Shown here piece after piece: positions 3,141 through 60,335 of a DNA stretch of 64,000 nucleotides. Each line of letters starts with the position of its first letter. The stretch's first letter is position 1. Both the position numbers and the translations under genes were made by a program. The stretch spans positions 18,709,513 through 18,773,512 of the forward strand of contig CAIIXF020000004.1 in the NCBI GenBank assembly GCA_903813345.2, in the 5' to 3' direction. The DNA is from Owenia fusiformis. Lineage: Eukaryota > Annelida > Polychaeta > Sabellida > Oweniidae. Below the pieces are notes generated by a model. That model was not told the origin of the DNA. It saw nothing but the letters and a program-made list of their open reading frames with translations, and searched no databases.

Positions 3141-3518
3141 ATTACATGATAATCTGCAACATGTTCACATGTTTAAAATTAAGCTTTAGCATTAGAAAAC
3201 ATGACTTTTGTTTATTACATGATAATCTGCAACTTGCTCACATGTTTAACACTAAGCTTTAGCATTAGAAAACATGACTATCTTTTATTACATGATAATC
3301 TGCAACTGGCTCATTAGAAAACATGACTATCTTTTATTACATGATAATCTGCAACTGCCTCACACGTTTAACACTAAGCTTTAGCATTAGAAAGTATGAC
3401 TATCTTTTATGACAAGAAAATCTACAACTGGCTCACATGTTTAACACTAAGTTTTAGCATTAGAAAGTATGACTATCTTTTATTACATGATAATCTACAA
3501 CTTGTTCACATGTTTAAC
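3141..3518. repeat. Tandem repeat, about 74-bp unit, 6 copies
   Basis: ATTACATGATAATCTGCAAC recurs with small changes at 3141, 3214, 3288, 3337, about 3409 and 3482. Each copy is followed by a segment around CACATGTTTAACACTAAG and TTTAGCATTAGAAA. One unit (3288-3336) is shortened to about 49 bp. No coding role is apparent. Confidence 0.9.
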
Positions 3519-5911: not shown

Positions 5912-6147
5912 GGCGCTTGCATCCAGTAAGAAACATTGGAACATTACAGTCCACTGTACGAAGGGTCGACGTGATGGACTGCACTCTTCGCAAGTTGATG
6001 TGTGCAAGGAACACATTGATGTGATGCCTATTGTAAAGACTGCAGCATATGTAGCAAAACAGACCTGTCAGTACATGTTCCAAGATAGACGCTGGAACTG
6101 TTCCTCTATAGAAAGTGTCCCCAAAATGACTAGGGATCTCAGCCTTG
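5912..6147 (+). CDS. WNT11: Wnt11 exon (N-terminal Wnt domain)
   Basis: Acceptor TTTGCAG ends at 5911 and donor GTAAGT starts at 6148. The first base completes a codon begun in the missing exon, very likely Trp by comparison with Wnt11. The exon encodes [15 protein letters not shown] through [12 protein letters not shown] to DLSL and ends one base into a Gly codon. It contains an N-glycosylation sequon (NIT) and the RWNCS motif. Confidence 0.93.
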
Positions 6148-9100: not shown

Positions 9101-10267
9101 TAATGTACCATAGCACAATACAAATGTATTACGTTTAACTAAACCTTTTTTTATGCAAATGCAACATCACAAAATTTATGATATAGCATTGAGCCATCTT
9201 TTGCCAGTGTACCGCCTTAATCAAATAATTTGCCTGGATACTTTAATATTAAACTTATTTCAGGTGATAGACAGCAGTTTGGGCACAGCATGCAAATGTC
9301 ACGGTGTATCAGGATCATGCGCTCTAAAAACTTGCTGGAAAGCACTTCCTGACATGGAAAAAATAGGACACAAATTAAAACATAAATATGCCTATGCTGT
9401 GGAAGTTGAAAGTAGGCGTGTTGGAAGGACTAAGAGATTGGTACCAGTTGATCATGATAAAATAGACATTGGCAATGATGAGTTGATATATTATACTACA
9501 TCACCAGATTATTGTGGGCCAGACCCAAAGACTGGCTCTGTCGGCACTGCAGGAAGGTAAGTAGAACATGTTCCTGCAACACTGTCTGCACTGCCTTTCC
9601 AACCTGAGACATTACGGTTTAGATTCATCATTGTTACATTGTGACAACTTTGGTTAGCAACAAGATTAAAAAGAGTTCTCCTGTATAAATGGTTCTATCA
9701 TGGGCCCAGTTTTGTTTCCTCTGGTAAGGTATTAGTTTGTGGCATAAGGGACTTGATGAAACACTAGTCAATATGCAGCTTTGACAATGATGACATCTAA
9801 TTGAGAGCAGATGGCTAAACAGGTTCCTTTCTGTATTTCCTTTCAGTATTTCAGGAGAGACATCTTTCTACTCATTTATTGCAAAAACAGTATCTACCTG
9901 TACTTCAATCAACCTGCTCATATTTACATTGTACTATCTTATTACTTGTACTATCACAAGTAATGTGTTTTAAGACTAATCAAAAAGTAATATTTAAACA
10001 ATGTATTTCAAGTTCTATCATGTATCCTACCAACATATGATAACTGGTTCATAAATACAATGAGAGTAATGTAGTTCTTTCTTTATTTGTAGGCGGTGCA
10101 TCAAGGGCGATGGAGGGTCTGGGGGTTGTGATAGCATGTGTTGTGGGAGGGGCTTTATCACCCTAAATCTACTGAAGAAGGAGAGGTGTGAGTGTAAATA
10201 CTACTGGTGCTGCTACGTGAAATGTAAAACATGTAGGAGATATGTTGAGATCCATAAATGTAGATAG
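5912..10267 (+). CDS. WNT11: Wnt11 secreted signalling protein (5' exon missing)
   Basis: Four exons join in consistent phase: 5912-6147, 6635-6900, 9264-9556 and 10093-10267 (stop TAG). They give about 322 residues. Vertebrate Wnt11 is about 354, so what is missing is essentially the signal-peptide exon. Wnt hallmarks seen are RRWNCSS, the cysteine pattern, [10 protein letters not shown] with the serine that Porcupine lipidates, and the C-terminal block ending [13 protein letters not shown]. Wnt11-type features are [28 protein letters not shown] and SPDYC. The product should be a secreted, lipid-modified ligand for Frizzled receptors; Wnt11 is known mainly for non-canonical signalling and convergent extension. 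Every intron begins GT and ends AG. A few AATAAA-like signals lie downstream (about 11516-11612), but the 3' end is not fixed. Assignment to the Wnt family is certain; assignment to Wnt11 is strong. Confidence 0.93.
6208..6425. repeat. Tandem repeat, 26-bp unit, about 8 copies
   Basis: Unit CTTGACAGTGTGAGTTTGTT followed by TGATGG, in the intron after the first visible Wnt11 exon, about 60 bp beyond its donor. Every unit contains GTGAGT, a good splice-donor core, but the unit is not copied from the neighbouring exon. Confidence 0.93.
6635..6900 (+). CDS. WNT11: Wnt11 exon (middle)
   Basis: Acceptor TTTGCAG ends at 6634 and donor GTAAAG starts at 6901. It encodes [19 protein letters not shown], then a cysteine cluster (RCGCG), [13 protein letters not shown] and [12 protein letters not shown]. 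It ends in phase 0. Confidence 0.95.
7721..9005. repeat. 45-bp tandem repeat, split by an insertion
   Basis: About eight copies of a 45-bp unit (CATTTCCAGTCCCCGATATA, then TTCCCTCTCCAATGACTCCA) cover 7721-8069 in the Wnt11 intron. Two further decayed units appear at 8946-9005. The gap 8070-8945 is unrelated sequence, so the array appears to have been split by an insertion. Confidence 0.85.
8070..8945. mobile_element. Putative ~875-bp insertion inside the 45-bp array
   Basis: Unrelated sequence interrupts the array; the expected junction AAAAGC/CATTTCC is separated by it. A phrase GTGGAGGACGAAAGG occurs twice (about 8599 and 8796). No transposase and no clear terminal inverted repeat were seen, so its class is unknown. 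Confidence 0.45.
9264..9556 (+). CDS. WNT11: Wnt11 exon with lipidation motif
   Basis: Acceptor TTTCAG ends at 9263 and donor GTAAGT starts at 9557. It encodes [19 protein letters not shown], then [21 protein letters not shown] and [18 protein letters not shown]. The serine in HGVSGSC is the conserved palmitoleoylation site of Wnt proteins. Confidence 0.96.
10093..10267 (+). CDS. WNT11: Wnt11 last exon
   Basis: Acceptor TTTGTAG ends at 10092. The exon encodes the C-terminal cysteine-rich block ([35 protein letters not shown]) and stops at TAG 10265-10267. Confidence 0.96.
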
Positions 10268-10412
10268 GAGTAAAATATGGAGTCAGAATTCAAAAGCAAG
10301 ATTTAAGACAAGATTATCAAATATTCAGACCTATAACTGTATAAGAACTTGAATCGGGAAAAACATGCATGTTTAAAATGTATGCTTTCAACAGATCAAG
10401 ATGTAAATATAC

Positions 10413-10690
10413 AAATACATTGTAAGATATGAGATTTACTGTCAGAATGTATTCATACATTGTAAGATATGAGATCATACATTGTAAGATATGAGATCTT
10501 CTGTCGGAATCTACAAAATACATTGTAAGATATGAGATCTACTGTCAAAATGTACACATACATTGTACAATATGGCAACTACTGTCAGGATATACACAAT
10601 TGTATGGTGTGAGATCTACTATCAGAATGTACAGATATAATGTAAGATATGAGATCTACTGTCAGGATGTACACATACACTGTGAGATCT
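10413..10690. repeat. Tandem repeat of about 40 bp downstream of Wnt11
   Basis: About six degenerate copies of ACATTGTAAGATATGAGATC plus TACTGTCAGAATGTACACAT lie just downstream of the Wnt11 stop, probably within or near the 3' untranslated region. Confidence 0.85.
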
Positions 10691-11059
10691 AAAGTAAGAT
10701 ACTGTAAATTGATTAATTGAATGTTTCTTTTTCAAAATTTGGAATTCATGAATAACATAAAGTGAAAATTTTCTTGGTGAAAACCTTGTATAAGTACTTG
10801 TGAAAAATGTGCATGCTTGTTCATGAACAGAACATGTATGAAATGTTAATTTATAAAAATACATTAAATCAAAACAAGAAATATTAAAAATTAGTCAAGT
10901 ATTACATGAATATAAGAGGTGCTTATATAGAACCTGAGAGCTTATGGGGATGGAAAACAAGCTTTTTCAAATAAAATGCATGATCTGGAAAGGCAAAAAT
11001 TAAATGCTTGGGATTTGTTCATATGTTAGATCCATTCTGCAATATTCATTCAAGGTCCC

Positions 11060-11475
11060 TTGGAGATTCCCAGTCAACCAGTTTGCAATGTTTATAGATT
11101 AGATCTCCAAGTTGTAATGTTCATAACTTAGGTTTCGCAGGTTGTAATCTTCATAAGTTAGGTCTCGCATGTTGTAATGTTTAGAAGTTAGGTCTCATAG
11201 GCTGTAATATTCATAAGTTAGGTCTCCCATGTTGTAATGTTTAGAAGTTAGGTCTCATAGGTTGTAATATTCATAAGTTAGGTCACGCAGATTGTAATGT
11301 TCGGAAGTTCATATAGGTTGTAATATTCATAAGTTAAGTCTCACAAGTTAGGTCTTGCACGTTGTAATGTTTATAAGTAAGGTCTCAAAGGTTGTTATGT
11401 TGATAAGGTACAATTGTATTTCCTCCAGGTTTTAAAATTCATAAGTTAGATCCTCATGTTGTAATGTTCAGCCAT
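11060..11475. repeat. Tandem repeat of about 30 bp
   Basis: About twelve degenerate copies of a unit with core TTCATAAGTTAGGTCTCGCA followed by GGTTGTAATG. Confidence 0.85.
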
Positions 11476-12991
11476 TTAGATTTAGTATGTATACTAAGTA
11501 TTTATAATAATGTGTAAATAAAAATGATTTAGTTTTTGTACAAAAATAAAATACAAAACAAATACTTGTAACCATTGTAAAATAGCCTAGTCTATGTATT
11601 GGGTTACTTAATAAATGTAACATCAGTGTTTTCACTTGTAATATTCAGTGAGATTACTGCTCTGATCACTTGAATTGCAAGTATATGCAGTGATTATTCA
11701 CCAAATTTTATATGGTGCTGTAGAGTAATATGTATTACACTTTTCTTCTTGTTTCCTGGTTTATTTGGTTATCATGGAATACAGTATGCCGTCATAATTT
11801 CATAAACTCCTGATTGCCCTGGTCTCTTGGCTTGTTTAAGCACTTTGTTCATACTTTTACAACTGACTACATAATGTTTAAGATTTGAAGAATTCCTGCC
11901 TCATGCTCTAACAGTTACATCAACTCAAAATGTTAGTTACATGCAGAAATCTATATGTCAGTTTCAGCTGAAAGAAGGCAGTTATTCATCAAATTAGAAT
12001 GTTATATGCTACTAACTGTAGATGATGTACATGATGTATGTGACTATGTAAACCACAACATATTTACAAAAGACTGATAACCCATCACTCTACTGACCAA
12101 GCAACAGAAAATGTTTGAGAATGTTAAGAAAACTACATTTTCAATCTCTTGTTTGTAGAACTGTTGTAAGTTGACAGAATCCTATGCTATTACAATGCAT
12201 GTAACTAATCCTCATAAACTTGACATGATCAATCTACTTGGTACATGTCTTCAATTCAATTCAATGCCAAGTGGATTCAAAGTGAAGCTGAAAGAGTGAG
12301 GCATAGATCAACACTAACTAGTATTTGTATAGTGATATAAGAATTGAGAAAATGTGTACTTTTTAAGCCGATATACTTTAATTGAATTTGTTTGAAACAA
12401 ACACATGTTTTACTTTTATTTGAATTTTCTGATCTTTTATTCTTGAACTTAATAAAACTTAATATGTTTTCCACATATATATGTAAAATGTATATAAATT
12501 GTAAATAAAGCAAAAAGTAAATCAAACACATACTGTTCATTTTAATAAATTAAGTTTGAATCACTAAATGTAAATCATCACACATTATGTTCCTACTTCG
12601 ACTAAAACAAGATACATTGTGTAAATGATCTTGAGAGAACCATCTTGCTTTTGTTCTCACAATAAACCAATTCAAGTGTTCAGAATAATTAGAGTTCATG
12701 TAATTCTTTTTTTGTGTCACTGTGTGATGTGTGATATTAACACCCATATCAAAATAATGAAAAGAACATCAGTACTATAATTTCTAAAATTGTATTTCAC
12801 CATTCACCAAAATATTCATCTCTCGATACAGTTGTTCAATTAAAGAGTACATATTTGAGAAAGTTTTTCCCACAGCATAAAAAACCCCAAGATGTACCCT
12901 GATTGTATCTCTTAGTTTTCCCAATCACTTAACTATAGGCATAACAAGTTAACAAACTTATCAAGTTAACACTTAACTAAATTCACCTTTG
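11476..12991. other. Intergenic region between Wnt11 and PUDP 3' ends
   Basis: No exon recognised. Wnt11 (+) and PUDP (-) converge here, so both 3' untranslated regions and polyadenylation sites should fall in this stretch. AATAAA-type motifs occur on both strands but I cannot tell which are used. Confidence 0.5.
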
Positions 12992-13171
12992 TTAACTATA
13001 AGCAGGTAGTCCAAAACTCTCAGGCACAAATTCTTCTAGGGAATTCAAAATTTGTGTCACTTTATCCCGGAGTTGTGATTGGTCAGCTTGTTTATCTGGT
13101 ATCCATATACACTGCATGCCTGCATTTATTGCACCCAAGGCTCCATTGTTGGCATCTTCAAATACTAGACA
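12992..13171 (-). CDS. PUDP: PUDP exon 5 (HAD motif IV, C terminus)
   Basis: The acceptor ATTGCAG precedes 13171. The exon encodes CLVFEDANNGALGAINAGMQ to SFGLPAYS and a stop. Its first 27 bases and the intron sequence just before it are repeated upstream as a 51-bp tandem array, so several identical acceptors compete. The one used here is the only copy followed by the conserved GALGAINAGMQ, so it must be the downstream-most. Confidence 0.92.
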   Translation of the reverse strand, partial: CLVFEDANNGALGAINAGMQCIWIPDKQADQSQLRDKVTQILNSLEEFVPESFGLPAYS

Positions 13172-16100
13172 CTGCAATATATTTAGAAAGTACATATTGT
13201 TGGCATCTTCAAATACTAGACACTGCAATATATTTAGGAAGTACATATTGTTGGCATCTTCAAAGACTAGACACTGCAATATATTTAGAAAGTACATATT
13301 GTTGGCATCTTCAAATACTAGACACTGCAATATATTTAGGAAGTACATATTGTTGGCATCTTCAAAGACTAGACACTGCAATATATTTAGAAAGTACATA
13401 TTGTTGGCATCTTCAAACACTAGACACTGCAATATATTTAGAAAGTACATATTGTTGGCATCTTCAAACACTAGACACTGCATATACATATAGCAAAGTA
13501 CATATTGTTGGCATGTTCAAACACTAGACACTGCATATACATATAGCAAAGTACATATTGTTGGTACATGGTATCTTCAAACACTAGACACTGCAATATA
13601 TTTAGAAAGTACATATTGTTGGCATCTTCAAACACTAGACACTGCAATATAGTTCATATTGTTGACATCTTCAAATACTAGACACTGCAATATATTTAGA
13701 AAGTACATATTGTTGGCATCTTCAAACACTAGACACTGCAATATATTTAGAAAGTACATATTGTTGGCATCTTCAAATACTAGACACTGCAATATATTTA
13801 GAAAGTACATATTGTTGGCATCTTCAAACACTAGACACTGCAATATATTTAGAAAGTACATATTGTTGGCATCTTCAAAGACTAGACACTGCAATATATT
13901 TAGAAAGTACATATTGTTGGCATCTTCAAACACTAGACACTGCAATATATTTAGAAAGTACATATTGTTGGCATCTTCAAACACTAGACACTGCATATAC
14001 ATATAGCAAAGTACATATTGTTGGCATGTTCAAACACTAGACACTGCATATACATATAACAAAGTACATATTGTTGGCATCTTCAAATTCTAGACACTGC
14101 AACATATATTGAAAAGTACATATATATTCAAACGTATCTCATACTTGAGTGGGTTTGGGGTAGATATCACCCGGGAATATATATCATATCTGAGGAGCGG
14201 GCAGGATATATTATGTATATCCCGCTTCAGGGCAAATGCGGGCAGATATAATATATCCATCCTGCTCACGGGAATTTTTCAAAAGTTTTAAAATTTTTTA
14301 AAAAATTAACATTTGAAAGTTTAAAATTTGTTAAAAAGTTTAAATGTTACAATTTCATTGTATTGAACTAAAAGGAATATTACGAAAATGTTAAATACAA
14401 ATTGTACTTTTACAGTATAGGCCTATCTTGTCATTTGAAAAAGGTGGAACCCCAAACCCACTTAAGTATGAGATACACCAGTTATGTACGATCGGTTTTG
14501 GATAAAGGGTATATCCCTCGGGAAATATTTATATCTCCCCTTGGTCCCTTCGGTCCCTCGGGATGATATAAATATATTCCTCAGGATATAACCTATATCC
14601 AAAACCTCCCAGTACATAACCCTTATATATCCAAACACAAGAAACTGCAATAGTGCAATATACACAAGGGTCATGCTGTTTGAGATTTCACAGTTTGGTA
14701 TCGTGATTGTATTATACAGTTCGGTTATGATTGTGGTTTTCATGGACTATGTAACATGAGCGAACAGATATGAAATTGGTCCAAAAATCAGAAAACATTC
14801 TGAGTGTGTCAAATTGTTTTATTGTTGTAAGTATTCACAATGACATACAAAGTGGACAAGCATAACTCTTCACTAGTACTCTGTTTCAGTAATGTTTATT
14901 GATTTTCTTGTTCAATGTTCATGTTTTTTCAACACATAAAGTAACTTGTCTACTTTTGGCAAAACTAGCACAGTACTTCACTAAACTGAATCCTTTTTTT
15001 ATTCAGAAACATAAGTTCATCAACTTTGACAGGAGACAATATGGCTCAAGGGCGAACGTAATACCTGGAATGTGCCTGCCTCGTTGGCAAATTCAAAGCA
15101 TTTGCTGTTCGGCTTTTTACCGTAATACTGTTCTATGAACCAATAGGATCGCGCGATATATTTAGCATAGATTACTTCCGGGTCAATATGCCAATGAAAT
15201 TTATCAACATTTCCGCTTGACTCCTTATATACACTATGATGTGGAATATTAAGAGCCATTGGTCTTGATAAATGTAATTTACCTTATCTGGAATTGGTTT
15301 CTCATCAAATCTCTGAGCTGCGACTAGAAAGCAATCTGGAGCTGGTTTCCCATGTATCACATCTGGATCACTACTACTGAGAACAACATGGTGAAACAAT
15401 TCAAATAATTCTTGGTGATTTCTGGTTTTTAATTCATAGTTGAATTTGTTTGAGCCAGTTGCTATAGCGATTGGAATGTTGTGTTGTGACAGGTGACGTA
15501 TCAATGTTTCTGCACCTGAAAATTAATCAGATTTCATTCAATGAACGTTATATAATATTTTATTTTTAATGAAGTATGTAATTCTATTATATTTTACCCA
15601 ATTTTCAAGCAAAATGGTTTGTCCTAATTTTCTAGCAGAACAGTTCCCTTTAACGATTTATCCTGAATGAGTACCTGGCAGAAGCTCACAGTGTGGAAAA
15701 AGTCTCTCCTGTGCTTCATGCATTTGTCTCAGATATTCCTCCACAGTTATAGGAAGCTCTAACTCATCTGAAATAATAACAGCATTCTCTATAAAACTAC
15801 CGGTAATATCATTATTTGTATCAATATGTGAACACCTCTCTATAATACAATTACTTTTAGCTGGTCCCAATGGTGTCTGCATTAAACAGGTTTTACTGTA
15901 TAAACAGTGATTTGAATTCAGTCTAAAAAATGATACTTAACAGCAATTTTTAATACCTTTTAAAATAAATTTGGAATAATATTATGACAAATGAAGAAAT
16001 CTTTTTTAAAAATTCTCTAAACTTCATAATTGTTCATAACAAGGTATAGACTGTTCATTTTGAGATGTCAGAGGTATTACTGCCTTGGGGTACTAAAATG

Positions 16101-19100
16101 CAATTTTAATATGTGAAATCCATAGCTTTTGAGAATCTTTAGTTGGCACATATCATGCAGACATTTTTAATGGACATTTGTTTTCAACCCCAACACCCTG
16201 AATCCACCAGTATCTATCTCAATTTTGCCAAGAATTGCAATTGGTATTTAAAAAAAAATGAAAAATTAATTTGCTCCACGGGTAACAAATTATTTCAAGT
16301 TTCCTGGTGAATGTCGAGTCTCACATCATACAAATGTAATTTTAGGTGATCTGTCTGCATGGTGTGCATATGGCTTTCTTTGGAATACCTAACATGGCAG
16401 TTTTCAGGTAGCTTCTTCAAAAACTTAGTTTTTCCAGAACTGATTACGAATGTATAAAATAATTATATACTTACTTATTAATATTTTTGCTGATTCTTGT
16501 TCTTTCTTTCCCATTTGTTTTGCTTTGATTTCCCATGTGAATGTTTTCCCATATTTTTCACATAATTCATTGGAGGCTACAGTGTATAGTCTTTCTGTAT
16601 CTGGAAAACATATATTACTGTTTTTACTTAAAAACAGATATATGAATGTTTACATTTACAAGACAAACATACTTTATTTTGTACCAGAAAATAACCAAAA
16701 TGTACAGATATAGGGCTTGTTTCTCCCCCCTACACAGGCAAATTACATTGGAGCCTGTACGACCCCCTCTTAGTTAGTATTCCAAATTTTCGACCCATGT
16801 ACTTACTACTTGCCCATACCGAGACCTGTAACTGCTGGTAATTTTCGACCCATGTACTTGCCCATATGGGATTCTTTACGAGGCTCGTAATAGCTTGTTA
16901 TTTCCAAGCTCTGTAGTGGCCTGTCATTACACTGCCCATAAGTATCCTTAATTTTTGACCCACGTACTTGCCCGTACAAGGCTCATAATGAGGCACCTAA
17001 TAGTTCATTATTTTCGATAAACTTTTTGTGATCAATGAAATAAAATATAGAGTACATTTAAAATGACATTTTGATTATATGTAAACGTGGAAAAATATGT
17101 CTGAAATATTTTTAAAATATTCACAGCCCTGTATTCATATGATGGATCAGTATAAAGCTCGAAAACAAAATTGTCTGGATACAGCAATGGCAGAGACCAT
17201 ATTTGTCAACTCGTGGAAAACTTATGTTGAAACATAAGAACACGGGAAAGTTGCCATTTTTCAACTTTCAGTTTCGAAACGATAATTTCATGCATCTTTT
17301 TGCATATAGCAGTCGTTATAGGCTGTCCTTAATCAGCATATCGATTATTAATTGAAAGGATTCCTTATGTTTTTACTGGATATATCTAACAATCATTTTC
17401 TACAAATTTCAGAAGCATCAAAAACGACCTCCCTTATACTCTTAATAACCAGTACACACTCATCGGAGGGCTTGCCCGACCCTCCAGACAAGCCCCTGTG
17501 GCCTTACCCAATGTTATCAAAATGTGATATGTGAAACTTTTTTGTTTAAGGTACAGCTGGAAAGTAACATTTTGGTAAAAAATTGCTATACCTGCACATG
17601 TTATTTTCTGGTACAAAATAAAGTATGAAGGCATGTGTCAATTTCCTTGCTTTTTTCAGGAAAGTATCATTACATTGTCTTCCTTTAGAATATTTGGTAG
17701 GAGTTCAATGGGAACTCCAGGAAATTCTGATATCTTTCTATTTTTCCAAATTTCTTTCAAAGTTTCCAGACAACACAGGAGCTACCATTGACCCATTTCC
17801 AGGTTTACTAAAAGTAGACAGTGTAATGATACTTTCCTGAAAAAAGCAAGGAAATAAACACATATGCCTTCATACTTAAATTTGTACCAGAAAATAACAT
17901 GTGCAGCTATAGCAATTTTTTACCAAAATGTTACTTTCCAGCTGAACCTTAAATTCCAGGCTTAACATTACAACAGTCATGACAGGTCTTGCAACCATTG
18001 TCACGGTCATATCTAGGTGCATTCATGCACCCTCTGGGTCTCTGAGGATCGTCTAATGCAAGTCCATACGACAATCCAACGCATTAGAGGCGGTGTTCAC
18101 CGTCTAGGTCATATCAGGCTTTAACATTACAACGGTCATGTCAGGCCTTGCAATAAAGTATAGCATTGTTACGGTCATATCAGGCTTAACATTACAACCA
18201 GGCCATGCGATATAATATAGCAATGTCAAGGTTATATCAGGCTATCCCGATAACACGTACTACAACAGTCATGGCAGGATTTTTGCGAAACTTAAAAACA
18301 CTTAATAACATGGTGACTGTTGTGCCAGGCATAAGTCTTGCAACATATAGGGTCTCGGTCCTGTGGTCAATTTGATGAAACTCAACAATGCTTTATTGCC
18401 CCCTTTATTTGATTAGGGGTTTGATTTATCTCGTTCCAAGACTCTCTACGTTCTAAACGAAGTTCCAAACGAAGTTATAAACGAAGAGGATGGTGTTGGA
18501 ACAAGATAAGGTTTGACACAGGCAATGGAACATAGAAATAATCCCCCCCCACTCTCTGTACATAAGTAAATAAAACAGGAACTTATCGTAGAAACTTGCA
18601 ATTTGCCTGTGAGGTTTGATATGTTGTGATATACAACCTTACTTCCTGCGAAAGCTATTTGGATTTTGATATAATAGCTTTCCCACGGAGCATTTGGACA
18701 GCTCAATGATCGTGACCTTTGAAATTGAATTAAGTCGATCCGCGGCTTACTTTTGGTCTCTAACTGTGTCTTACATCAGTATCATCAATCCGTGTAAGTA
18801 TTGGAGCGCTGGAGTACTTCTTTCTTGATCAAGACTTGTAATTGTTAGTCGAGTGAATCGTTTTACTGCCAAATTCCAATATGGCGGTTTCTGCTCGGAC
18901 ATTATCGTAAATCTCCGGAGGTTGTCCGAACCCAACTAATTCTCAAAATTCATTTCGTTCGTTGCATATCTCGCACCTAGCAAACCGCCATATTGGAAAT
19001 AGGTCTAAAAAACTTTCACTCGATGAACAATTTACAAGTCTTGATCGAAAAAGAAGTACTCCAGCGCTCCAATACTTACACGGATTGATGATACTGATGT

Positions 19101-22100: not shown

Positions 22101-23459
22101 TGGAAATATATCAATCATAACAGACCGAATATTATATTCGGTCTGTTGGAACATACTAAAAATTTCTCCATCTAAAATGTCATTCGACTTTTGGGCAATT
22201 AATTTAGTCCCTGCCTGCATTTAGTAGTCATATATTGTCATGTGCATAATTTTGAAACCATATCCTAATTATTTCACAAACCCTTTGTTGATTCTGCCAT
22301 AGTTTCCAATTTGTAAACAGCATTTAGCCTTTTTAATTGGGAACTTTTTTGAAATTTCCAAAATGGCTGCCATGTGATTCCAGAATTAACATGAGTGTGA
22401 CGTGACATCACAGTTGCTCGTTCCTAGGTAACAACAAGATCACAATTGCTCGTTTCTAGATAGCAACAAGATTTTTGATAAAATGGCACAGAATTACCCT
22501 GATTAACACCCTTAAAATCCGATTTTCAAAGAATATATTTGGAGAAACAATAAAAGGTAAGTGGAATAAATTAGAAGATGGTTTCAAGTTACCACAGAAG
22601 TCAATTTGAAACTCAAGAATGCTTTCTTTGACTCATAATCACAAAAAAGTCGAGTGACATTTTAGATGGAGAATTTCTTAGTTTGAGAGCCATAAGTTTC
22701 AAAATCTAACATGGCTCTCGAAGTGAGTAAATACAACCATTATGCTGGGGAGATCACTGAGACTAAAAATGCATTTAGATATATTATCAGGTTACTCCCG
22801 TCGAGAGCTACTAAGATTTTGAAAGTATAGCTCTCTATCGCTAGGATCAACAGCTTAAGAATCCTGACTTCAAAGAAAATTTCAGGGAATTCAGCTGACT
22901 CATGTTGCACATTATATACCTGAAAATGTATCCTACATCGCCATCTTTCATTCAATTCAACTATAGAACGTCTCACTGCCCTATGTATCGATCAGGACTT
23001 CATTTTATTGGTCGTGTCAAAAGTTTTGGCCAGGTATATTCAATATGGCGGCTTGACGTTTCCCAAGTTGCGCATGCGTCGATAGTATTTCCGTTAACCG
23101 CCATATATTGGAAATGGGTATCGAACAAAAAACGATTAGAACTCCTGATCGCCATAGAAGCACATCCGCGATCCTACATGCACGGGGAAAGTAGACACAT
23201 ATGAGCCCATATGTAGGCTACAGTTTGAGACAAACAGCAAGCCGTTGACTGGCGCTGATCAAATTAAGATGTTACAATTCTTCAGCTGGGAGATCCTCAC
23301 GATGGAGAGCTATACTTTCAAAATCTAACATGGTAGCTCTCGACGTGAGTAATTATCAGGCAATTTAAAAGAAGACAAGATCTGAACTATATTACCTAGC
23401 AGAAGTCCATCCATATCAAAGATCACATGAGAAACAGGCTTGTTTCCGGAAGTTGACAT
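12992..23459 (-). CDS. PUDP: Pseudouridine-5'-phosphatase (HAD superfamily)
   Basis: Five exons join in phase on the minus strand: 23459-23396, 16600-16475, 15767-15675, 15515-15283 and 13171-12992. They give 231 residues, against 228 in the human enzyme. HAD motifs in order: I, FDMDG with the nucleophile Asp15 and acid/base Asp17; II, AIATGS; III, Lys in HGKPAPD; IV, acidic pair in CLVFEDANNG (residues 177-178). The C terminus (NSLEEFVPESFGLPAYS) closely matches the vertebrate protein. The enzyme removes phosphate from pseudouridine 5'-phosphate, a product of RNA breakdown, in the cytosol. The start MSTSGNKPVSH is chosen because it sits just before the first conserved strand, as in relatives. 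The last acceptor lies at the edge of a 19-copy array that repeats that acceptor and the first codons of the exon. Intron 1 is 6.8 kb and full of foldback elements. Confidence 0.93.
13142..14112 (-). repeat. 51-bp array repeating the PUDP exon 5 acceptor
   Basis: About 19 copies of a 51-bp unit. On the minus strand each unit reads (intron) ATATTGCAG, then TGTCTAGTATTTGAAGATGC and CAACAATATG, i.e. a splice acceptor followed by codons for CLVFEDANN. Because 51 is 17 codons, seven units next to the real exon (to about 13489) form one open frame of repeating CLVFEDANNMYFLNILQ. A second run of seven is open at 13628-14002. Units near 13489-13560 and 13981-14100 have a changed spacer (GCATATACATATAGC), break the frame and still keep the CAG. 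Single-base variants (AATACT, AAGACT, AACACT) distinguish copies, so this is not simple assembly stutter. Confidence 0.96.
14134..14476. mobile_element. Foldback/MITE-like element
   Basis: Terminal inverted repeats of about 28 bp: GTATCTCATACTTGAGTGGG... at 14134-14161 and its complement at 14449-14476. There is no coding capacity. It lies in PUDP intron 4. Confidence 0.8.
14484..14619. repeat. Imperfect inverted repeat
   Basis: TTATGTAC...GTTTTGGATA...GGTATATCC near the left end is mirrored by GGATATA...TATCCAAAAC...GTACATAA near the right end. It is a small hairpin directly beside the previous foldback element and shares its GATATA-rich style, so the two may be relatives. Confidence 0.6.
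15283..15515 (-). CDS. PUDP: PUDP exon 4 (HAD motifs II and III)
   Basis: Acceptor TTTTCAG precedes 15515 and donor GTAAAT begins at 15282. It encodes AETLIRHLSQHNIPIAIATG, SSDPDVIHGKPAPDCFL and RFDEKPIPDK, and ends in phase 0. Confidence 0.94.
15675..15767 (-). CDS. PUDP: PUDP exon 3
   Basis: Acceptor TTATTTCAG precedes 15767 and donor GTACTC begins at 15674. It encodes ELELPITVEEYLRQMHEAQE and RLFPHCELLP, part of the helical cap. Confidence 0.92.
16475..16600 (-). CDS. PUDP: PUDP exon 2
   Basis: Acceptor TTTTCCAG precedes 16600 and donor GTAAGT begins at 16474. It encodes (D)TERLYTVASNELCEKYG, then FTWEIKAKQMGKKEQESAKI, matching the cap-domain start of PUDP. It is too short to stand out as an open frame. 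Confidence 0.92.
16740..17020. repeat. Degenerate short repeats in PUDP intron 1
   Basis: Phrases such as TTTTCGACCCATGTACTTGC and CCATACGAG-like segments recur three to four times in altered form. No protein-coding signal. Confidence 0.45.
17546..17952. mobile_element. Foldback element, copy 1
   Basis: About 407 bp with long terminal inverted repeats starting TTAAGGTACAGCTGGAAAGT on the left and ending with the complement at 17952. The inner parts are also partly palindromic (AAGTATCATTACA / TGTAATGATACTTTCC). A second copy at 21592-22003 lies in the opposite orientation. Confidence 0.88.
17953..18702. other. Intronic sequence, mild repeats only
   Basis: Degenerate repeats of the type TTAACATTACAACGGTCATG and TCAGGCCTTGCAA occur at about 17958-18280. 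Nothing else is recognised. Confidence 0.45.
18703..19167. mobile_element. Foldback element with ~190-bp arms
   Basis: The left arm (from about 18703) reads TCAATGATCGTGACCTTTGA, then GTCGATCCGCGGCTTACTTT and continues to AATATGGCGGTTT. The right arm (to 19167) is its imperfect complement. About 75 bp separates the arms. No transposase. Confidence 0.88.
19711..20169. repeat. 459-bp repeat, copy 1
   Basis: Nearly identical to 21039-21499 in the same orientation. Its start (ACTGCCCTAATTCACGTCAC) and end (GTGACGTATTAGGGCATTTT) are imperfect inverted repeats of each other, which suggests a MITE-like unit. It also contains CTAGTCAATGGGCAAAAGGG. Confidence 0.88.
20170..21038. other. 0.87-kb segment between two direct repeats
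   Basis: Unique sequence whose ends (GGCCTAATAGCCACATG at the left, CATGTGACTAATAGGC at the right) are themselves imperfect inverted repeats continuing into the TAGGGCA motif of the flanking copies. It may be the body of a composite element of about 1.8 kb (19711-21499). No transposase frame is visible. Confidence 0.55.
21039..21499. repeat. 459-bp repeat, copy 2
   Basis: Direct copy of 19711-20169, differing at only a few positions (for example GAAGGCAAAATTAATACG in place of GAAGACAATTAATACG). Confidence 0.88.
21592..22003. mobile_element. Foldback element, copy 2 (inverted)
   Basis: Same family as 17546-17952, with its centre in reverse orientation (AACCTGGAAACAGGTCAATG here against the complement in copy 1). 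Ends are TTAAGG at 21592 and CCTTAA at 22003. Confidence 0.88.
22797..23348. repeat. Inverted repeat in PUDP intron 1
   Basis: CGTCGAGAGCTACTAAGATT and TTGAAAGTATAGCTCTCTAT at about 22797-22870 are mirrored at about 23275-23348, just inside the first intron. A third, shorter partial copy lies at 22697-22725. It may be a foldback element about 550 bp long. Confidence 0.7.
23396..23459 (-). CDS. PUDP: PUDP exon 1 (HAD motif I)
   Basis: ATG at 23459-23457. It encodes MSTSGNKPVSHVIFDMDGLL plus one more Leu and one base of an Asp codon; the donor GTAATA follows at 23395. An upstream in-frame Met exists (MNYRSDTPRSFK precedes) but the shorter start fits the family. Confidence 0.88.
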
Positions 23460-24733
23460 TTTGAATGACCTTGGGGTGTCACTACGGTAATTCATTGAAG
23501 AAACTGAATAAGTGTGAAGGTGTAAATACCGTAATCCAACACGAAATTCGAAAATTCTGAACACTACTTTGCACATATGCCGTTCGTGCCCCCACCCCGT
23601 AGTGTTATATATCAAAATGTACACTCACTGCATGTGAGTTAAACTGTTTGGTCTGCAAGACCACGGGACATATTTAGCGTAGTGAAACCTTGAACTTGGC
23701 CAACACCGGAAGTTGCAAATTTTACTGGTAAGATATCATTTCTACCTTATTCAAGGTTTTACCACAGTCGATTGTAGTTTGATTTGGACAAGAAGAATTA
23801 TAATTATTCATTAGAAGAATAGTGCCCTGAGTGTGAGGACGCCAAAAGAACTCCAAATCATTTCTTCATAAAATTCCACAGGAAGCTCTTTCAACACCTG
23901 ACATCTAGAGGCTATGGAAAGGGTTCGGGCGTACAGCGTTTAAGTGGATTTTGATTGAACGAGAAATGTGAAATGCAAGTCCTGCAGGCCCGTGCAGACG
24001 TTCATGAAGTTAACCCCGTGTATCGTGAAGTCAATAAACTCCTTCTGTGACGCCTTTCAGTCTCGTTATTTCGTGCTAATTTCTAAACTCTTCTGTATTT
24101 AGCCAATCAGAACACCAGTTACAAAACGCGACAAAGATTAACATAAGAGAGGGTGCAATACCATGGGGATATTAATATTTTAATTTCTTTTCTTCTATTT
24201 TGATTGGTCGAGAATAACGACTTATTAGAAATTCAACCAATAGCAAGTCAATCCAGCGAATACAAAGATCAACCTGATATACTGAGATATCTGGACTTTG
24301 AGACCATCGTCTGGACTTTGCAAGTCTTACAAGCAAAATGGAGAGTGATTTCGCTGAGTCTGCCATTGGACAGTTTAGCGATTTATTTAATGACCCTGAA
24401 ACGTGAATGTAATGATATTTGATCTTCATGAAACGTGAATGTAATATTTTGATGATGGACGTGAAACGTGAAAGTAATTCTGATTAGTAATGTGCGACGT
24501 GAAAACGTGTTACCACCTGGCGTGATTATGTGACAAAACCCCCTTTCCATAGGCTCCATCGAGATCTATTGCCTTACCTGAAATAGACTGAGCTTCTATT
24601 CTGCCACAAACCCCTTTTTAAAAGTTAGAGAATTGTTATTTGTTTGTGCCCAAATGCTTTCCACTAAAGCGCTTTGTGCGTTTTTTCTGGTGTAATTCCA
24701 GCAGTTGCTTTCAATGGGAAATTATTTTTACTA
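23460..24733. other. Upstream of PUDP; probable promoter region
   Basis: Untranslated leader and promoter of PUDP should lie here, but I see no decisive TATA or initiator. A phrase GAAACGTGAATGTAAT recurs at about 24400, 24430 and, altered, 24463. No gene recognised. Confidence 0.4.
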
Positions 24734-34608: not shown

Positions 34609-34788
34609 ATGCAAACATTAAACCTGAGTTTTGCTGGATGTGGCTTCCTGGGGATCTACCACTTAGGTGTTGCTCAGTGCCTTGTAAAGCATGGTGACCG
34701 TCTCTTGAGAGAAGTGCAGTGTATAGCTGGTGCTTCCGCTGGCTCACTAGCAGCCTCTGCCATAGTAGCAGGCCCAGATAAATTAGGG
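34609..34788 (+). CDS. PNPLA4: PNPLA4 exon 1 (oxyanion hole and nucleophile Ser)
   Basis: ATG at 34609; encodes MQTLNLSFAGCGFLGIYHLG and CIAGASAGSLAAS, ending PDKLG. Donor GTGAGT at 34789. Phase 0. Confidence 0.92.
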
Positions 34789-37700
34789 GTGAGTTAACAA
34801 GAAAATATCACCAGAAATTCACCTATATGTTGATTATGGTGGAAACAATTTCAGTATATAAGGTTAGTTCCAATGATTCATCTTTATGTCACATATTGTT
34901 AATGGTTTCCAACTTTTTGTGCATGGTGTTCGGTGGTTGGCAGTTTGTGGTCAGCATATGGCATCTGTAACAAATGGCAGGTGGTGACATTTTGCATCTT
35001 AATGGCTTGTTTTTATTTACATCAATCCCTTTATATTACATATTCTCATTTATTCACACCAAGTGCTTTAACGAACTTAGCCTGCATGGTGAGTGTGCTG
35101 ATGAGTAATTTTAGGCCTTTAGTATATTTATCCCATTTTAAAGTACGGTATCTCTAATAAATTAATTGTGTTGCTTTATATAATTTTATAATTTATAGAA
35201 CTACAATTTTTCTTTCAGGAGTGTGTCAAATTCTGTTTCTCCCTGGCTGAAGCACAAGAGAATCAACGATTTGGAATGTTGACACCAAAATTCAGTCTTC
35301 TGAAGCCATTAGAGGAATTCCTACACACTATGCTCCCTAATGACGCCCATGTTACATCATCGGGAAAGCTGTTTGTATCACTTACGGAAATGTCTTCCAA
35401 TAAAAATGTTTTGAAATCTACTTTTGAGACGAAGGATGAATTAATACAGGTATGTGCTATAATCACCTGAAGGTGGGATACTTTATTTTTCCCATATGAT
35501 TGTTCCATATGTTACTTAGGAAAAGTACATTTGGTTGGAGGATAATTGGAAATAAACTACATATGCAACTCAGTGTAAAATATTAATAAATGAAGAGAAA
35601 CTAAAACAGTAACTGTACTGATATGTAGAAATGCAGATGATCTAAACTCTGCTCATATTGATTATAGTTTAGAGATAAACCACATTCATCATGTAAATTA
35701 AAAACAAACCTTGGGAAGATTTCACCTGATAATAAAGTTCAGTTGGAATACAGTGAAGCCCTCATATGTCTGTCTGTGCATACTATAATTAATATAATAC
35801 TGGATATGACAATGGAAAAAATGAAAATCAATCTATAATCTATCTACATGTTGTACAGGGTGACCCAAAAAAATGCAACCCTCCATTTCTTCAATATTTT
35901 TCTTAAATGGTGGTAAATTGCTCTGAAATTTGGCACACGAGGACTATATTCAATGTGGGATCCTCTGGCAAAGTTCCAATAATTCTAGTCTTATATTGAT
36001 AGAGTTATGGTCGTTCCAAAATATGCTCCAAATGTCGTCCATTTCCAATGTTAGGTTTTCGAATGAATCACATTCCCTTCTTTCTGAACATGTAAATTCA
36101 AGAAATAATGTGTTCTGGGATCACAAATTCCAGATGAAGTGCTTCAAAGGCCCCTTCATTTTGTTAAATGCACAGCTTGGGCTGCCAATTTCCAAACATG
36201 AAATCATCAGCCCCTTTTGGTTTAAGGTTGATAATGGCAACACTGTTACTGTTAACACACAGCGCAATCCAGGTGTTCCCAGGAAGTTCTAGGCAGTTCT
36301 AGAGTGACATAGAGGCTTCAATAGACAATAACAGTGGTTCTAGAAGGATGGAGCTACTCCTCACACTTCTAATGATAGCATAGCCTGGCTCACTAGTCAT
36401 TTCTATGAGAAGATTGTCTCTCCTAGGACGGAGAACCCGTGGTCATCCCACAGTCTTGATCTCAATGCCCCTGACTTCTATATATGGGGTTATTTAAAGG
36501 ATAATGTGTATGAAAATAACCCTCCCGCAATTGCAGAACTCCAACAAGCAATGGCTGCAAAAATTTGAGCCATACCCATGGGGAAGAATGCATCCGTGTT
36601 ATGAATAGTTTTCCTAGACGACATCTGGAGCATATTTTGAAACAACCATAACTCTATCAATATAAGACTATGGTTATTAAACTTTGCCAGAGGATCCCAC
36701 ATTGAATGAAGTCCTTGTGTGCCAAATCTCAGAGCAATTTACCTCCATTTAAGAAAAATATTGAAGAAATGGAGGGTTACATTTTTTTGGGTCACCCTGT
36801 AGATGTCCAAATGTTAGTCTAAATTGATATTTGTGTAAAGATTGTATGGTTATGTTGCTCTTAAACAAAACACATGAGGCAGTATATTTATATACTACAA
36901 GATGTGTGTCCATCAATCCATCTCTCAATTTGTCTAATTCAGTTTGTCTTAGTCATTATTGTTAAGACATTTCAAATAATACCTTTTTTATATGGAAATT
37001 GATCCTTGGGGTTTGCTACTCACTGGAGTTGCTGTTTATAGTAATTTAGTTGTTATTGAATCTGTCAAATTAATCCATAATTATCTCCCAGCAAGCCTAT
37101 TACAAGCCACACCTTTAATCTCCAGATTATTCATCTAACCAACTGCTCTTCTGGTGTTTAGTACAAATGTGAATATCAATTAGGCCATAAGAAGTAGATT
37201 CTTTGTTTTGCATTCTCCTTGCTTGCACGATTTTGAGTAAATCATAAAAAACAAACACATCCAAATAGTAATCACAAGGGTCTGAAAATGCCATCGCATT
37301 TCATTCAATAAGAATCAGACGAAATGGCGGATAATTTGATGTGCGTCAAAATTGACAGTGTTATTGATTACTTTGGCATACATTGTGTATTTTCTTATTT
37401 TTTACCCTTGAGTAATAGCTATGTTTAAATTTATTAGATATGTGTTTGTAATTACTGCAAATTGGTATGTTATCCCTTAGCCCATAAAATGTATACATTT
37501 CTCAGGAAACAAGTTGTGTTTTTCTTGAGTTTGTGTTTGTTTTCCTTGTACCCTTGCATGAATTGAATTTTGCCAGGACGCAAAACAAAGAATATACTTC
37601 TTATGGCCTTATTAATACTAAATGTGAAGTCTGTTTTCTTTATTTTTTGCAAATTCTACTTCAACTCTATTTTCTTTTAAAAACATGATATGACCCTAAT

Positions 37701-40535
37701 GATATATTTCTCATAGTCATTTAAATACATTTCATTTAGCATGCTTTCACTCATTACCATCTTCATTGGGAAGTTCCAAGCACTGGATCCAGGTGAACCC
37801 TTGGTGGGCCCAGAAATAAATATTTGAGCCCAAAAAGTATTTGGGCCCAAACATTTTGTAGGGCCTCAATTAGTGGGCCTTTTTGGGCATTACTTGGCCT
37901 TTTGTCAAACTGTTAAACAATTTTTGGATTTTGGGGCTCAAAATTTTCAAGATTTGAAATCTGCCCCCCCCCCCCCGTCTTGTTAGCTTCTGGATCTGCC
38001 AGTGATTGAACTGCTTGTTTTGAACTTACTATACTCTAATATTCTTTCTTACTTTTTTCCAGTGTTTGCTGGGTAGTAGCTGTATTCCACATGTTACTGG
38101 CACCACTCCTATAGAGATCAATGGAAAGGTAGGTAGCTATATTCCACATGTTACTAGCACCACTCCTATAGAGATCAATGGAAAGGTAGGTAGCTATATT
38201 CCACATGTTACTGGCACCACTCCTATAGAGATCAATGGAAAGGTAGGTAGCTATATTCCACATGTTACTAGCACCACTCCTATAGAGATCAATGGAAAGG
38301 TAGGTAGCTATATTCCACATGTTACTGGCACCACTCCTATAGAGACCATTAGAAAGGTAAGTAGCTATATTCCACATGTTACTAGCACCACTCCTATACA
38401 GGTCAATGGAAAGGTAGGTAGCTATATTCCACATATTACTGGCACCACTCCTATAGAGACCATTGGAAAGGTAGGTAGCTATATTCCACATATTACTGGC
38501 ACCACTCCTATAGAGATCAATGGAAAGGTAGGTAGCTATATTACACATATTACTGGCACCACTCCTATAGAGACCATTGGAAAGGTAGGTAGCTATATTC
38601 CACATGTTACTGGCACCACTCCTATAGAGACCATTGGAAAGGTAGGTAGCTATATTCCACATGTTACTGGCACCACTTCTATAGAGACCATTGGAAAGGT
38701 AGGTAGCTATATTCCACATGTTACTAGCACCACTCCTATACAGGTCAATGGAAAGGTAGGTAGCTATATTCCACATGTTACTAGCACCACTCCTATACAG
38801 GTCAATGGAAAGGTTGGTAGCTATATTCCACATATTACTGGCACCACTCCTGTAGAGACCATTGGAAAGGTAGGTAGCTATATTCCACATGTTACTGGCA
38901 CCACTCCTATAGAGACCATTGGAAAGGTAGGTAGCTATATTCCACATGTTACTGGCACCACTCCTATAGAGACCATTGGAAAGGTAGGTAGCTATATTCC
39001 ACATATTACTGGCACCACTCCTATAGAGATCAATGGAAAGGTAGGTAGCTATATTTCACATTTACTGGCGCCACTCCTATAGAGACCATTGGAAAGGTAG
39101 GTAGCTATATTCCACATGTTACTGGCACCACTCCTATAGAGACCATTGGAAAGGTAGGTAGCTATATTCCACATGTTACTAGCACCACTCCTATACAGGT
39201 CAATGGAAAGGTAGGTAGCTATATTCCACATATTACTGGCACCACTCCTATAGAGATCAATGGAAAGGTAGGTAGCTATATTACACATATTACTGGCACC
39301 ACTCCTATAGAGACCATTGGAAAGGTAGGTAGCTATATTCCACATGTTACTGGCACCACTCCTATAGAGACCATTGGAAAGGTAGGTAGCTATATTCCAC
39401 ATGTTACTGGCACCACTCCTATAGAGACCATTGGAAAGGTAGGTAGCTATATTCCACATATTACTCGCACCACTCCTATAGAGACCGTTGGAAAGGTAGG
39501 TAGCTATATTCCACATATTACTGGCACCACTCCTATAGAGATCAATGGAAAGGTAGGTAGCTATATTCCACATAATACTGGCACCACTCCTATAGAGATC
39601 AATGGAAAGGTAGGTAGCTATATTCCACATGTTACTAGCACCACTCCTAAAATCTCCTAGAATGGTCAATGGGAAGATAGGTCACTATTCCACATGTGAT
39701 TGGGATCAACATTCAATGTTTTCATTTACATAAATCACATATTTCATAATAATTTGTGCAATGAAGTCCCATTCACTTTCAACCCAACAACATTCATAAA
39801 TACAATAATGTTTGATGGAAAGGGGAATTTGATTGGTTTAAATATAAGTCATTTAATCAAATATTTGACAAAACAAGTTTCTTTCCTGATAATTTAATAA
39901 TCTTGTTCAATACACTTAAGTTCTTAAGCAGGGGGGAGTAGCTGATTTTCGCTAGAAAATTCAACAAATCCGGAAAATTAATTTTTCATCTGTATTTGCA
40001 GAAATATAAAGATGGTGGGATCACAGACAACCTGCCAATATTCAAAAATGGCCGAACAATTCGTGTGACACCATTTTGTGGTCGTCAGGAAATCAGCCCT
40101 CATGACAAAAGGGGGCGTGGTTGGTATCTGACATATTGTAATGAAGAATTCCAAGTGAATGCCAATAACCTTATAAGGGGTTACCACGCCTTCTCTCCAC
40201 CACAAAAGGATTTGATGTGGATGTATTACTACCAAGGCTATTTTGATGCAACAAGATTTCTTAAAGCTGAAAATTTATATGATGATGTCACTGGACAAGA
40301 CGATGTACCAAAATCAGAGAATATGCCAGATTCTCACTCAGGTATTGAAAATTGTGTCCACCCACAAGTCAATATGTCTCCAAAATCTATTAGATTGACA
40401 AAAAGTGATACGGATATTCATTCACTAGAGGAAAAGGAGGAAAATCAAGATGCAAGAAAGCGCTGTGCATCTTCTAATGGGTCCAATACAAATGCCAGAG
40501 AATCTGACAAAGTTCAATTTGAGTCTACTTTATAA
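34609..40535 (+). CDS. PNPLA4: Patatin-like phospholipase, PNPLA4-like
   Basis: Exons 34609-34788, 35219-35449, 38063-38128 and 40002-40535 (all junctions phase 0) give 336 residues. The patatin fold is clear: oxyanion-hole motif GCGFLG (10-15), nucleophile elbow GASAGS with Ser43, and the catalytic Asp163 in DGG. The N terminus (NLSFAGCGFLGIYHLG) and GRTIRVTPF favour PNPLA4; DELIQ and GITDNLP also recall PNPLA2 (adipose triglyceride lipase), so orthology is likely but not proven. Adjacency to PUDP, as in human, supports PNPLA4. The family hydrolyses acylglycerols or retinyl esters at lipid droplets or membranes. The C terminus extends about 80 residues beyond the domain, is polar (EEKEENQDARKR) and looks disordered. 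Exon 3 is tiny (22 codons) and is followed by a 28-copy array of itself plus its splice donor. Confidence 0.88.
35219..35449 (+). CDS. PNPLA4: PNPLA4 exon 2
   Basis: Acceptor TTTCTTTCAG ends at 35218; donor GTATGT begins at 35450. Encodes ECVKFCFSLAEAQENQRFGM to TFETKDELIQ. Phase 0 on both sides. Confidence 0.92.
35856..36799. mobile_element. Decayed mariner/Tc1-like element in PNPLA4 intron 2
   Basis: Ends CAGGGTGACCCAAAAAAATG and its complement, with TA on both sides (35854-35855 and 36800-36801); the inverted arms are about 150 bp or more. Plus-strand remnants include HEIISPFWF, DGATPHTSNDS, PWSSHSLDLNAPDFYIWGYL and AELQQAMAAKI, typical of the catalytic region of this superfamily. Stops and frame changes interrupt them. 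Confidence 0.87.
36137..36567 (+). pseudogene. Broken transposase of the 35856-36799 element
   Basis: Reading across frames, segments HEIISPFWFK, DGATPHT, HSLDLNAPDFYIWGYLKD and NPPAIAELQQAMAAKI occur in the expected order. DGATPHT and LNAPDF would be the second and third acidic positions of the DDE/D triad. The gene cannot make a full protein as it stands. Confidence 0.65.
38063..38128 (+). CDS. PNPLA4: PNPLA4 exon 3 (22 codons, shortest form)
   Basis: A pyrimidine-rich acceptor (CTTTTTTCCAG) ends at 38062. The exon encodes CLLGSSCIPHVTGTTP then IEINGK, with donor GTAGGT at 38129. This matches the segment between the DELIQ block and the catalytic DGG in relatives. Using later donors in the following array would extend the exon by 19 codons per copy, in frame, for up to 16 extra copies. 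Confidence 0.85.
38075..39655 (+). repeat. 57-bp array repeating PNPLA4 exon 3 and its donor
   Basis: About 28 copies of a 57-bp unit. Each reads GTAGGTAGCTATATTCCACA, TGTTACTGGCACCACTCCTA, TAGAGATCAATGGAAAG, so its end plus the next start forms AAAG|GTAGGT, a strong splice donor. The first unit is exon 3 itself (starting GGTAGTAGCTGTATT). The period equals 19 codons (VGSYIPHVTGTTPIEINGK), and the frame stays open from exon 3 through copy 17. A 1-bp deletion near 39061 (CACATTTACTGG) then leads to a stop at 39082. Variant copies carry GTAAGT (38356) or GTTGGT (38814) and ACCATTGG or AGGTCAATGG near the end. Confidence 0.97.
40002..40535 (+). CDS. PNPLA4: PNPLA4 exon 4 (catalytic Asp, C terminus)
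   Basis: Acceptor TATTTGCAG ends at 40001. Encodes KYKDGGITDNLPIFKNGRTI, SPHDKRGRGW and the PPQKDLMWMYYYQGYFDATR block conserved in PNPLA2/4. A polar tail and a stop at 40533-40535 follow. Confidence 0.92.
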   Translation, partial: KYKDGGITDNLPIFKNGRTIRVTPFCGRQEISPHDKRGRGWYLTYCNEEFQVNANNLIRGYHAFSPPQKDLMWMYYYQGYFDATRFLKAENLYDDVTGQDDVPKSENMPDSHSGIENCVHPQVNMSPKSIRLTKSDTDIHSLEEKEENQDARKRCASSNGSNTNARESDKVQFESTL

Positions 40536-60135: not shown

Positions 60136-60191
60136 TATTGTATTACATACTGAACATATAATCAAAGTGTGAAGATGTTTATTTGGTGAAA

Positions 60192-60331
60192 CAATTCAAG
60201 CAAAGTCAATCAAAGTTCAAACAAACACAATCAAAGTTCAAACAAAGTCAATCAAAGTTCAAACAAACACAATCAAAGTTCAAACAAAGTCAATCAAAGT
60301 TCAAACAAACACAATCAAAGTTCAAACAAAG
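60192..60331. repeat. Short tandem repeat, 30-bp unit
   Basis: Alternating 15-bp halves CAATCAAAGTTCAAACAAAG and CAATCAAAGTTCAAACAAAC, about five 30-bp units. The open frame it creates (KQSQSKFKQTQS repeats) is an artefact of the period. Confidence 0.9.
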
Positions 60332-60335
60332 TTGG

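Follow-up and report, generated by a model that had tools for sequence, protein, structure and literature searches.

The stretch of DNA analysed here, which we call the window, comprises 64,000 nucleotides of Owenia fusiformis. Its minus strand carries a gene of five exons, with GT-AG introns throughout, that codes for a protein of 243 amino acids (Table 1). Residues 14-242 of this model align with human PUDP (3l5k) at E 3.9e-73 and 248.7 bits. The HAD domain is found with both PF13419 (89.3 bits) and PF00702 (90.4 bits), and the Owenia protein P0001, which bears the name PUDP at its source, shows 100% identity across 91% of the model. The gene model is sound, and judged by its sequence the predicted protein is a member of the PUDP / HDHD1 pseudouridine-5'-phosphatases. 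Its acidic pair, placed at 177-178 by the first-pass annotation of this DNA, is E177-D178 if we count from the second methionine; counted from the first one, the same residues are 189-190. On the plus strand lies a PNPLA4-like gene, and in both genes a tandem array spans the boundary between an exon and an intron.

Table 1. Positions in the window of the two genes and of the arrays at their exon-intron boundaries (a slash within a motif marks the splice boundary)
Feature	Positions	Strand	Remarks
PUDP exon 1, from first Met	23396..23495	-	
PUDP exon 2	16475..16600	-	
PUDP exon 3	15675..15767	-	
PUDP exon 4	15283..15515	-	donor AAG/GTAAAT, phase 0
Diverged intron end before first PUDP copy	14097..14123	-	array edge, GTTGCAG acceptor
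Acceptor mirage, 18 upstream copies	13172..14096	-	last 925 nt of PUDP intron 4
Six consecutive 51-bp units open in PUDP frame	13172..13477	-	CLVFEDANNMYFLNILQ x6
PUDP exon 5, last	12992..13171	-	59 codons + stop; protein P0001 agrees
PNPLA4-like exon 1 of model	34609..34788	+	GCGFLG motif; Patatin PF01734
PNPLA4-like exon 2	35219..35449	+	
PNPLA4-like exon 3	38063..38128	+	66 nt, ending in copy 1 of the donor mirage
57-bp donor mirage	38129..39679	+	27 AAG/GT sites including true donor 38128/38129
PNPLA4-like exon 4	40002..40532	+	joined directly to 38128 in P0228

The array at the last PUDP exon

The last exon of PUDP is preceded on the minus strand by a tandem array (13145-14123) for which TRF gives a period of 51, 19.0 copies, 91% matches and a score of 1562. 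This array is confirmed as real and not a matter of chance. It consists of 18 tandem copies and the genuine start of exon 5, whose first 27 nt make up copy 19, so that the ladder of about 19 acceptors built from the real acceptor and the start of this exon, as proposed in the first-pass annotation, is indeed present. Each repeat unit consists of about 24 nt of the intron end, including the AG, followed by the first 27 nt of exon 5. The annotation had described all units as being 51 bp long and as containing ATTGCAG, which holds for the majority only. We see that 13 of the 18 upstream units measure 51 bp, while three (units 1, 2 and 12) measure 53 bp, one (unit 11) 60 bp and one (unit 9) 43 bp. 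Similarly, ATTGCAG is found in 14 of the 19 acceptors, with GTTGCAG in number 1 and TATGCAG in the four acceptors numbered 2, 3, 12 and 13. The sequence GCAG/TGTCTAG, on the other hand, is kept in all 19.

The intron half of units 1, 2, 11 and 12 differs from that of the other units. The 13 clean 51-bp units vary at no more than two sites of their alignment: column 9, where the change is silent in a Val codon, and column 43, which belongs to the intron-derived half. Since the unit order 53/60-53-51-51-51, the last of these with a C at column 9, occurs twice, block duplications must have taken place within the array.

A tandem repeat that spans an exon-intron boundary was named a "mirage" in the amphioxus gene Adh3 (PMC3087553). 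The PUDP array has the anatomical features of a mirage: the unit includes an exon end as well as an intron end, the authentic boundary is the outermost one, and the splice signal is kept. It is thus, by its anatomy, of a known kind, described in another phylum.

A search of the 498-Mb assembly with the array DNA, in which very common words were skipped and only the best candidates were scored, returned a single match, and on this ground a second copy or haplotig of the array was rejected. It is conceivable that the array was over-expanded during the assembly or is absent from the animal, given that there is one assembly and that it is a consensus of noisy long reads. However, the N50 of the PacBio reads is 25.75 to 30.75 kb, far above 1 kb (PMC9977687), and the units differ from each other by point changes and by ordered block duplications. 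We consider such an artefact very improbable.

Just upstream of the array, at 14134-14476, there is a MITE-like element whose terminal inverted repeats measure 28 bp (96%); next to it, at 14481-14620, comes an imperfect palindrome.

As for the origin of the array, it would have started with a tandem duplication of the last ~24 nt of PUDP intron 4 together with the first 27 nt of exon 5, perhaps via the AT that is common to both break points, a match of two bases only. The array may then have grown and shrunk by unequal exchange or slippage, block duplications included. As the copies sit in the intron, they would be removed by splicing.

Choice among the repeated splice sites

Next, we asked which protein would result from each of the PUDP acceptors. 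When exon 4 is joined to one of the acceptors 13-18 and translated, PUDP stays full-length and gains between six (acceptor 13) and one (acceptor 18) inserts of CLVFEDANNMYFLNILQ, whereas any of the acceptors 1-12 yields a truncated PUDP, with stops inside the extended last exon. The first-pass annotation had counted seven units that are open in the coding frame, of which six are in-frame inserts and the seventh is the true exon. Its statement that an insert would duplicate motif IV in front of the genuine one follows from the reading frame, but there is no sign in the records described below that such a protein is made.

In the protein P0001 we read ...IPDK-CLVFEDANNGAL..., which means that exon 4 is joined to the true, most distal acceptor at 13171 and that no insert is present. 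P0001 is marked as partial, and the use of 13171 is known from the gene model; the gene set of Owenia combines junctions from RNA-seq with PASA and with Augustus predictions that were guided by Capitella proteins (PMC9977687). This evidence supports the use of 13171, but not its exclusive use, and short reads from the upstream acceptors would map ambiguously within the repeat. A PUDP query carrying two inserts found no insert-bearing protein among the best 120 of 457 matches, the top match being again P0001, and the insert motif was present in 0 of the 284 protein sequences examined. Note that proteins sharing 90% identity are clustered in the database and that representatives were compared (P0001 stands for 2 sequences).

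The first-pass annotation regarded the inserts as options. In this reading the six in-frame acceptors would be used in part and would give PUDP isoforms with 1-6 extra copies of CLVFEDANNMYFLNILQ. That acceptors 13-18 are in frame is in agreement with this idea, and so is the identity of acceptor 7 (13786) with the true acceptor from -42 to +27. On the other hand, the searches described above returned no insert-bearing protein, an insert would probably disrupt the fold, since it comes to lie directly before the motif-IV strand, between its first residue and the preceding K, and the two variable columns of the clean 51-bp units represent too few events to argue for selection. Together with the unit lengths of nearby arrays (see below), this makes optional inserts quite improbable. 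Alternatively, the array could act as a regulatory switch, in which the truncated proteins from acceptors 1-12 leave less PUDP in some tissues; indeed, all twelve lead to early stops. Junction-dependent decay needs a junction downstream of the stop, however, and would not act here, as the extended last exon that contains these stops is followed by no further junction. Boundary arrays are furthermore found also at unrelated exons nearby, and we judge a switch to be most improbable.

We also considered that the true site might simply be the stronger acceptor. This was rejected: 10 of the 17 positions from -20 to -4 are pyrimidines, the same number as in most copies (the exceptions are the first acceptor with 11 and the tenth with 8). 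Since acceptor 7 equals the true acceptor over -42 to +27, the distinguishing feature must be the position or sequence lying farther away. Acceptor 17 is identical to the true one over 144 nt upstream and over just 8 nt downstream. CTAA occupies the corresponding position in 13 of the 19 acceptors. As a possible branch site we note, by eye, a CCAAC that precedes most of the AGs by ~29-31 nt and belongs to the exon-derived part of the copy before.

The second mirage of the window offers a comparison from the donor side. The PNPLA4-like gene contains a Patatin domain (PF01734, 82.5 bits) and its relatives are named PNPLA4; a comparison of the protein with solved structures gave no match. Its 27 donors read GTAGGT in 25 cases, GTAAGT in one and GTTGGT in one. 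In the Owenia protein P0228 the first donor, which is the one attached to the exon, is used (38128 to 40002) and a 19-aa insert is absent. There is a resemblance between the opening of exon 3, GGGTAGTAGCTGT, and that part of the unit which looks like intron, GGTAGGTAGCTAT, and therefore the donor copies may stem from exon sequence alone. At its N-terminus, P0228 departs from our model in that exon 1 is read in another frame and the GCGFLGIYHLG motif is skipped, which is either an alternative start or an annotation error.

According to the first-pass annotation, the spliceosome normally takes whichever AG comes first downstream of the branch point, and the true PUDP acceptor would have to win against all upstream copies. 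This is not binding with long introns: with flanking introns above 250 nt, the sites closest to each other across the exon are preferred (exon-centric proximity, PMC9225289). The classical, intron-centred rule pairs the sites that are nearest to each other across the intron; for PUDP it predicts the first acceptor, and for the PNPLA4-like gene the last donor. By the exon-centred rule it would be the last acceptor and the first donor, respectively. Both protein records use the exon-attached copy, which gives the longest intron, and so match the exon-centred rule. The two array-bearing introns (2,111 nt for PUDP intron 4, from exon 4 to 13172, and 1,873 nt in the PNPLA4-like gene) are longer than the 250-nt changeover reported in PMC9225289. 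The exon-centred rule is a statistical one, derived from internal exons, and in some size-matched classes the preference for the upstream 5' site is only 29-44% (PMC9225289).

Given the length of intron 4, PUDP exon 5 would be recognised as a unit, and the acceptor attached to the full exon and the poly(A) side would win. The 18 copies would then be ignored, barring possible low-level noise. Such a reading extends the exon-centred rule to a last exon, for which the poly(A) definition may serve as the other side. As the intron upstream of exon 4 has a length of 159 nt only, exon definition at PUDP is something that we infer. Overall, it is in our opinion probable that the PUDP array is a neutral mirage minisatellite and that exon definition picks the acceptor that sits on the real exon, where both the neutrality and the selector are what we infer from the evidence given above.

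Tandem arrays across 264 kb

We wanted to see the PUDP array in the context of the surrounding DNA and surveyed the window together with the next 200 kb, chosen because it adjoins the window (264 kb in total). Arrays were called with TRF, requiring a period of at least 15, at least 2.8 copies and a length of at least 90 bp, and were merged. In summary, there are 61 tandem arrays, which occupy 46.8 kb or 17.7% of the sequence. Four of the 61 are supported mirages and three more are candidates. These counts are lower bounds, since only 18 of the 134 reading frames that cross array edges were scanned with Pfam (17 in the adjoining 200 kb and one in the window); trimmed versions of three edge frames were scanned as well.

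Among the 17 frames of the adjoining 200 kb, two reached the curated cut-off. The first of these belongs to a DSL exon with an acceptor mirage (L004:7567-8362, which is 91567-92362 if the window numbering is continued) of eight TTTCAG/TGTG sites with a period of 109, where the first site is followed by the exon start alone. The frame scores 27.4 bits in its long and 27.9 bits in its trimmed version (cut-off 24.2), and a second frame across the same array stays below the cut-off with 18.7 bits. The other is an EGF_CA exon with a donor mirage (L020:4930-9609), in which we find 45 donors with a period of ~97, TRF giving the dimer of 193. Here the frame reaches 33.5 bits (cut-off 27), and only a few bases separate the end of the domain match from the first donor.

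The three candidates are less clear. An F5/8-like exon at L005:966-1443, with eight copies and a period of 61, has an E of 0.085 for the long frame and nothing for the trimmed one. A 32-bp array at L019:8699-9625 (242699-243625) contains 28 AG/GTA sites and matches unrelated domains with E ~0.04. Finally, in a 31-bp array at L004:6904-7145 (90904-91145) there are seven acceptors, the intron end alone is repeated, and Pfam gives no match.

For the frame at 60162-60455 in the window, which crosses an array edge, no Pfam family was found. Two further frames were set aside as repeat noise: that of a 33-bp array at 79833-80662, with three below-cut-off matches (the best being B_lectin with 22.7 vs 32.4 bits), and that of the array at 116462-117094, with two (DUF7247 and Ank_5). 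The exons of a Wnt gene lie on the plus strand at 5892-9557 of the window, with minisatellites in two of its introns; these arrays (6206-6421 and 7721-8068) were rejected as mirages, as by eye their units are without exon sequence. The window also contains a Mariner-like transposase on the minus strand (26051-27298). Its frame 26570-27298 shows the domains HTH_48 and Transposase_1, and by eye the frame 26051-26431 resembles the other part of this transposase.

The unit lengths bear on the question of optional inserts. The 51 and 57 bp of the two mirages in the window are multiples of three, as in-frame inserts would call for. Taken together, however, the supported mirages (51, 57, 109 and ~97) and the candidates (61, 32 and 31) have no bias towards multiples of three, and selection for in-frame units was rejected accordingly. 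By a rough estimate, for which we took 26,966 genes and assumed that each has 5-9 exons, 1.8-3.6 arrays with the founding unit over a boundary are expected by chance. The number of mirages is near this expectation, which suggests that they are nearly harmless.

Mirages in other animals and their meaning

Apart from Adh3, the amphioxus mirages listed in PMC3087553 and PMC3902484 are the globins BflGb6 and BflGb9, TnC and PGBD5. In BflGb6 the intron end and the exon start are repeated, with 6 and 3 copies on two haplotypes, and RT-PCR suggested regular splicing of the amphioxus mirages (PMC3087553). They resemble the PUDP array in being minisatellite-like boundary duplications, which in BflGb6 combine the 3' end of an intron with the 5' part of an exon, and the Owenia mirages in general in that both acceptor and donor types occur and that the AG or GT is kept in many copies. 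On the other hand, Owenia is an annelid and not a cephalochordate, its arrays are larger (19 copies at PUDP and 27 sites in the PNPLA4-like gene, vs 3 and 6 copies in BflGb6), and several of them lie within 264 kb.

In human duplicated genes, internal tandem repeats at exon-intron boundaries can form new introns or be retained (PMC2812944). Like the arrays in Owenia, these are minisatellites at exon-intron boundaries; the human set is located in recent segmental duplications, and for 66% of the intron modifications there is a retained isoform too (PMC2812944). The PUDP array differs from this set by its single match in the assembly and by the lack of an insert-bearing record in our searches. 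Closer to Owenia, the metallothionein loci of earthworms contain intronic minisatellites, and exon 4 duplications there are missing from the final transcript (PMC12783039). The intronic minisatellites are thus shared between these annelids, but arrays that span a boundary are not described in the accessible part of PMC12783039. Nor did we find a boundary-spanning array in an annelid in the literature that we searched, that is, in the accessible text of open-licence papers.

One may go further and propose that mirages are pervasive in Owenia, with nearly identical splice sites in a row at an appreciable fraction of its minisatellites, that their length changes feed occasional isoforms with in-frame inserts or new introns, and that the PUDP copy number is a heritable, variable splice ladder. 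We think that this is rather unlikely; most likely, the PUDP array is a neutral mirage that splicing reads past. It is more than a curiosity, as there are further mirages nearby. With at least four of them in 264 kb of an annelid, mirages are not an oddity of cephalochordates, the group for which the papers that we found describe them, and new introns could repeatedly arise from such material. The supported exons, with their runs of 8 to 45 splice sites, are moreover natural tests of splice-site choice, because the sites are in places identical to the true site over tens of bases while one of them sits on the real exon, and because the array end that is favoured by an intron-centred choice is the opposite of that favoured by an exon-centred one.
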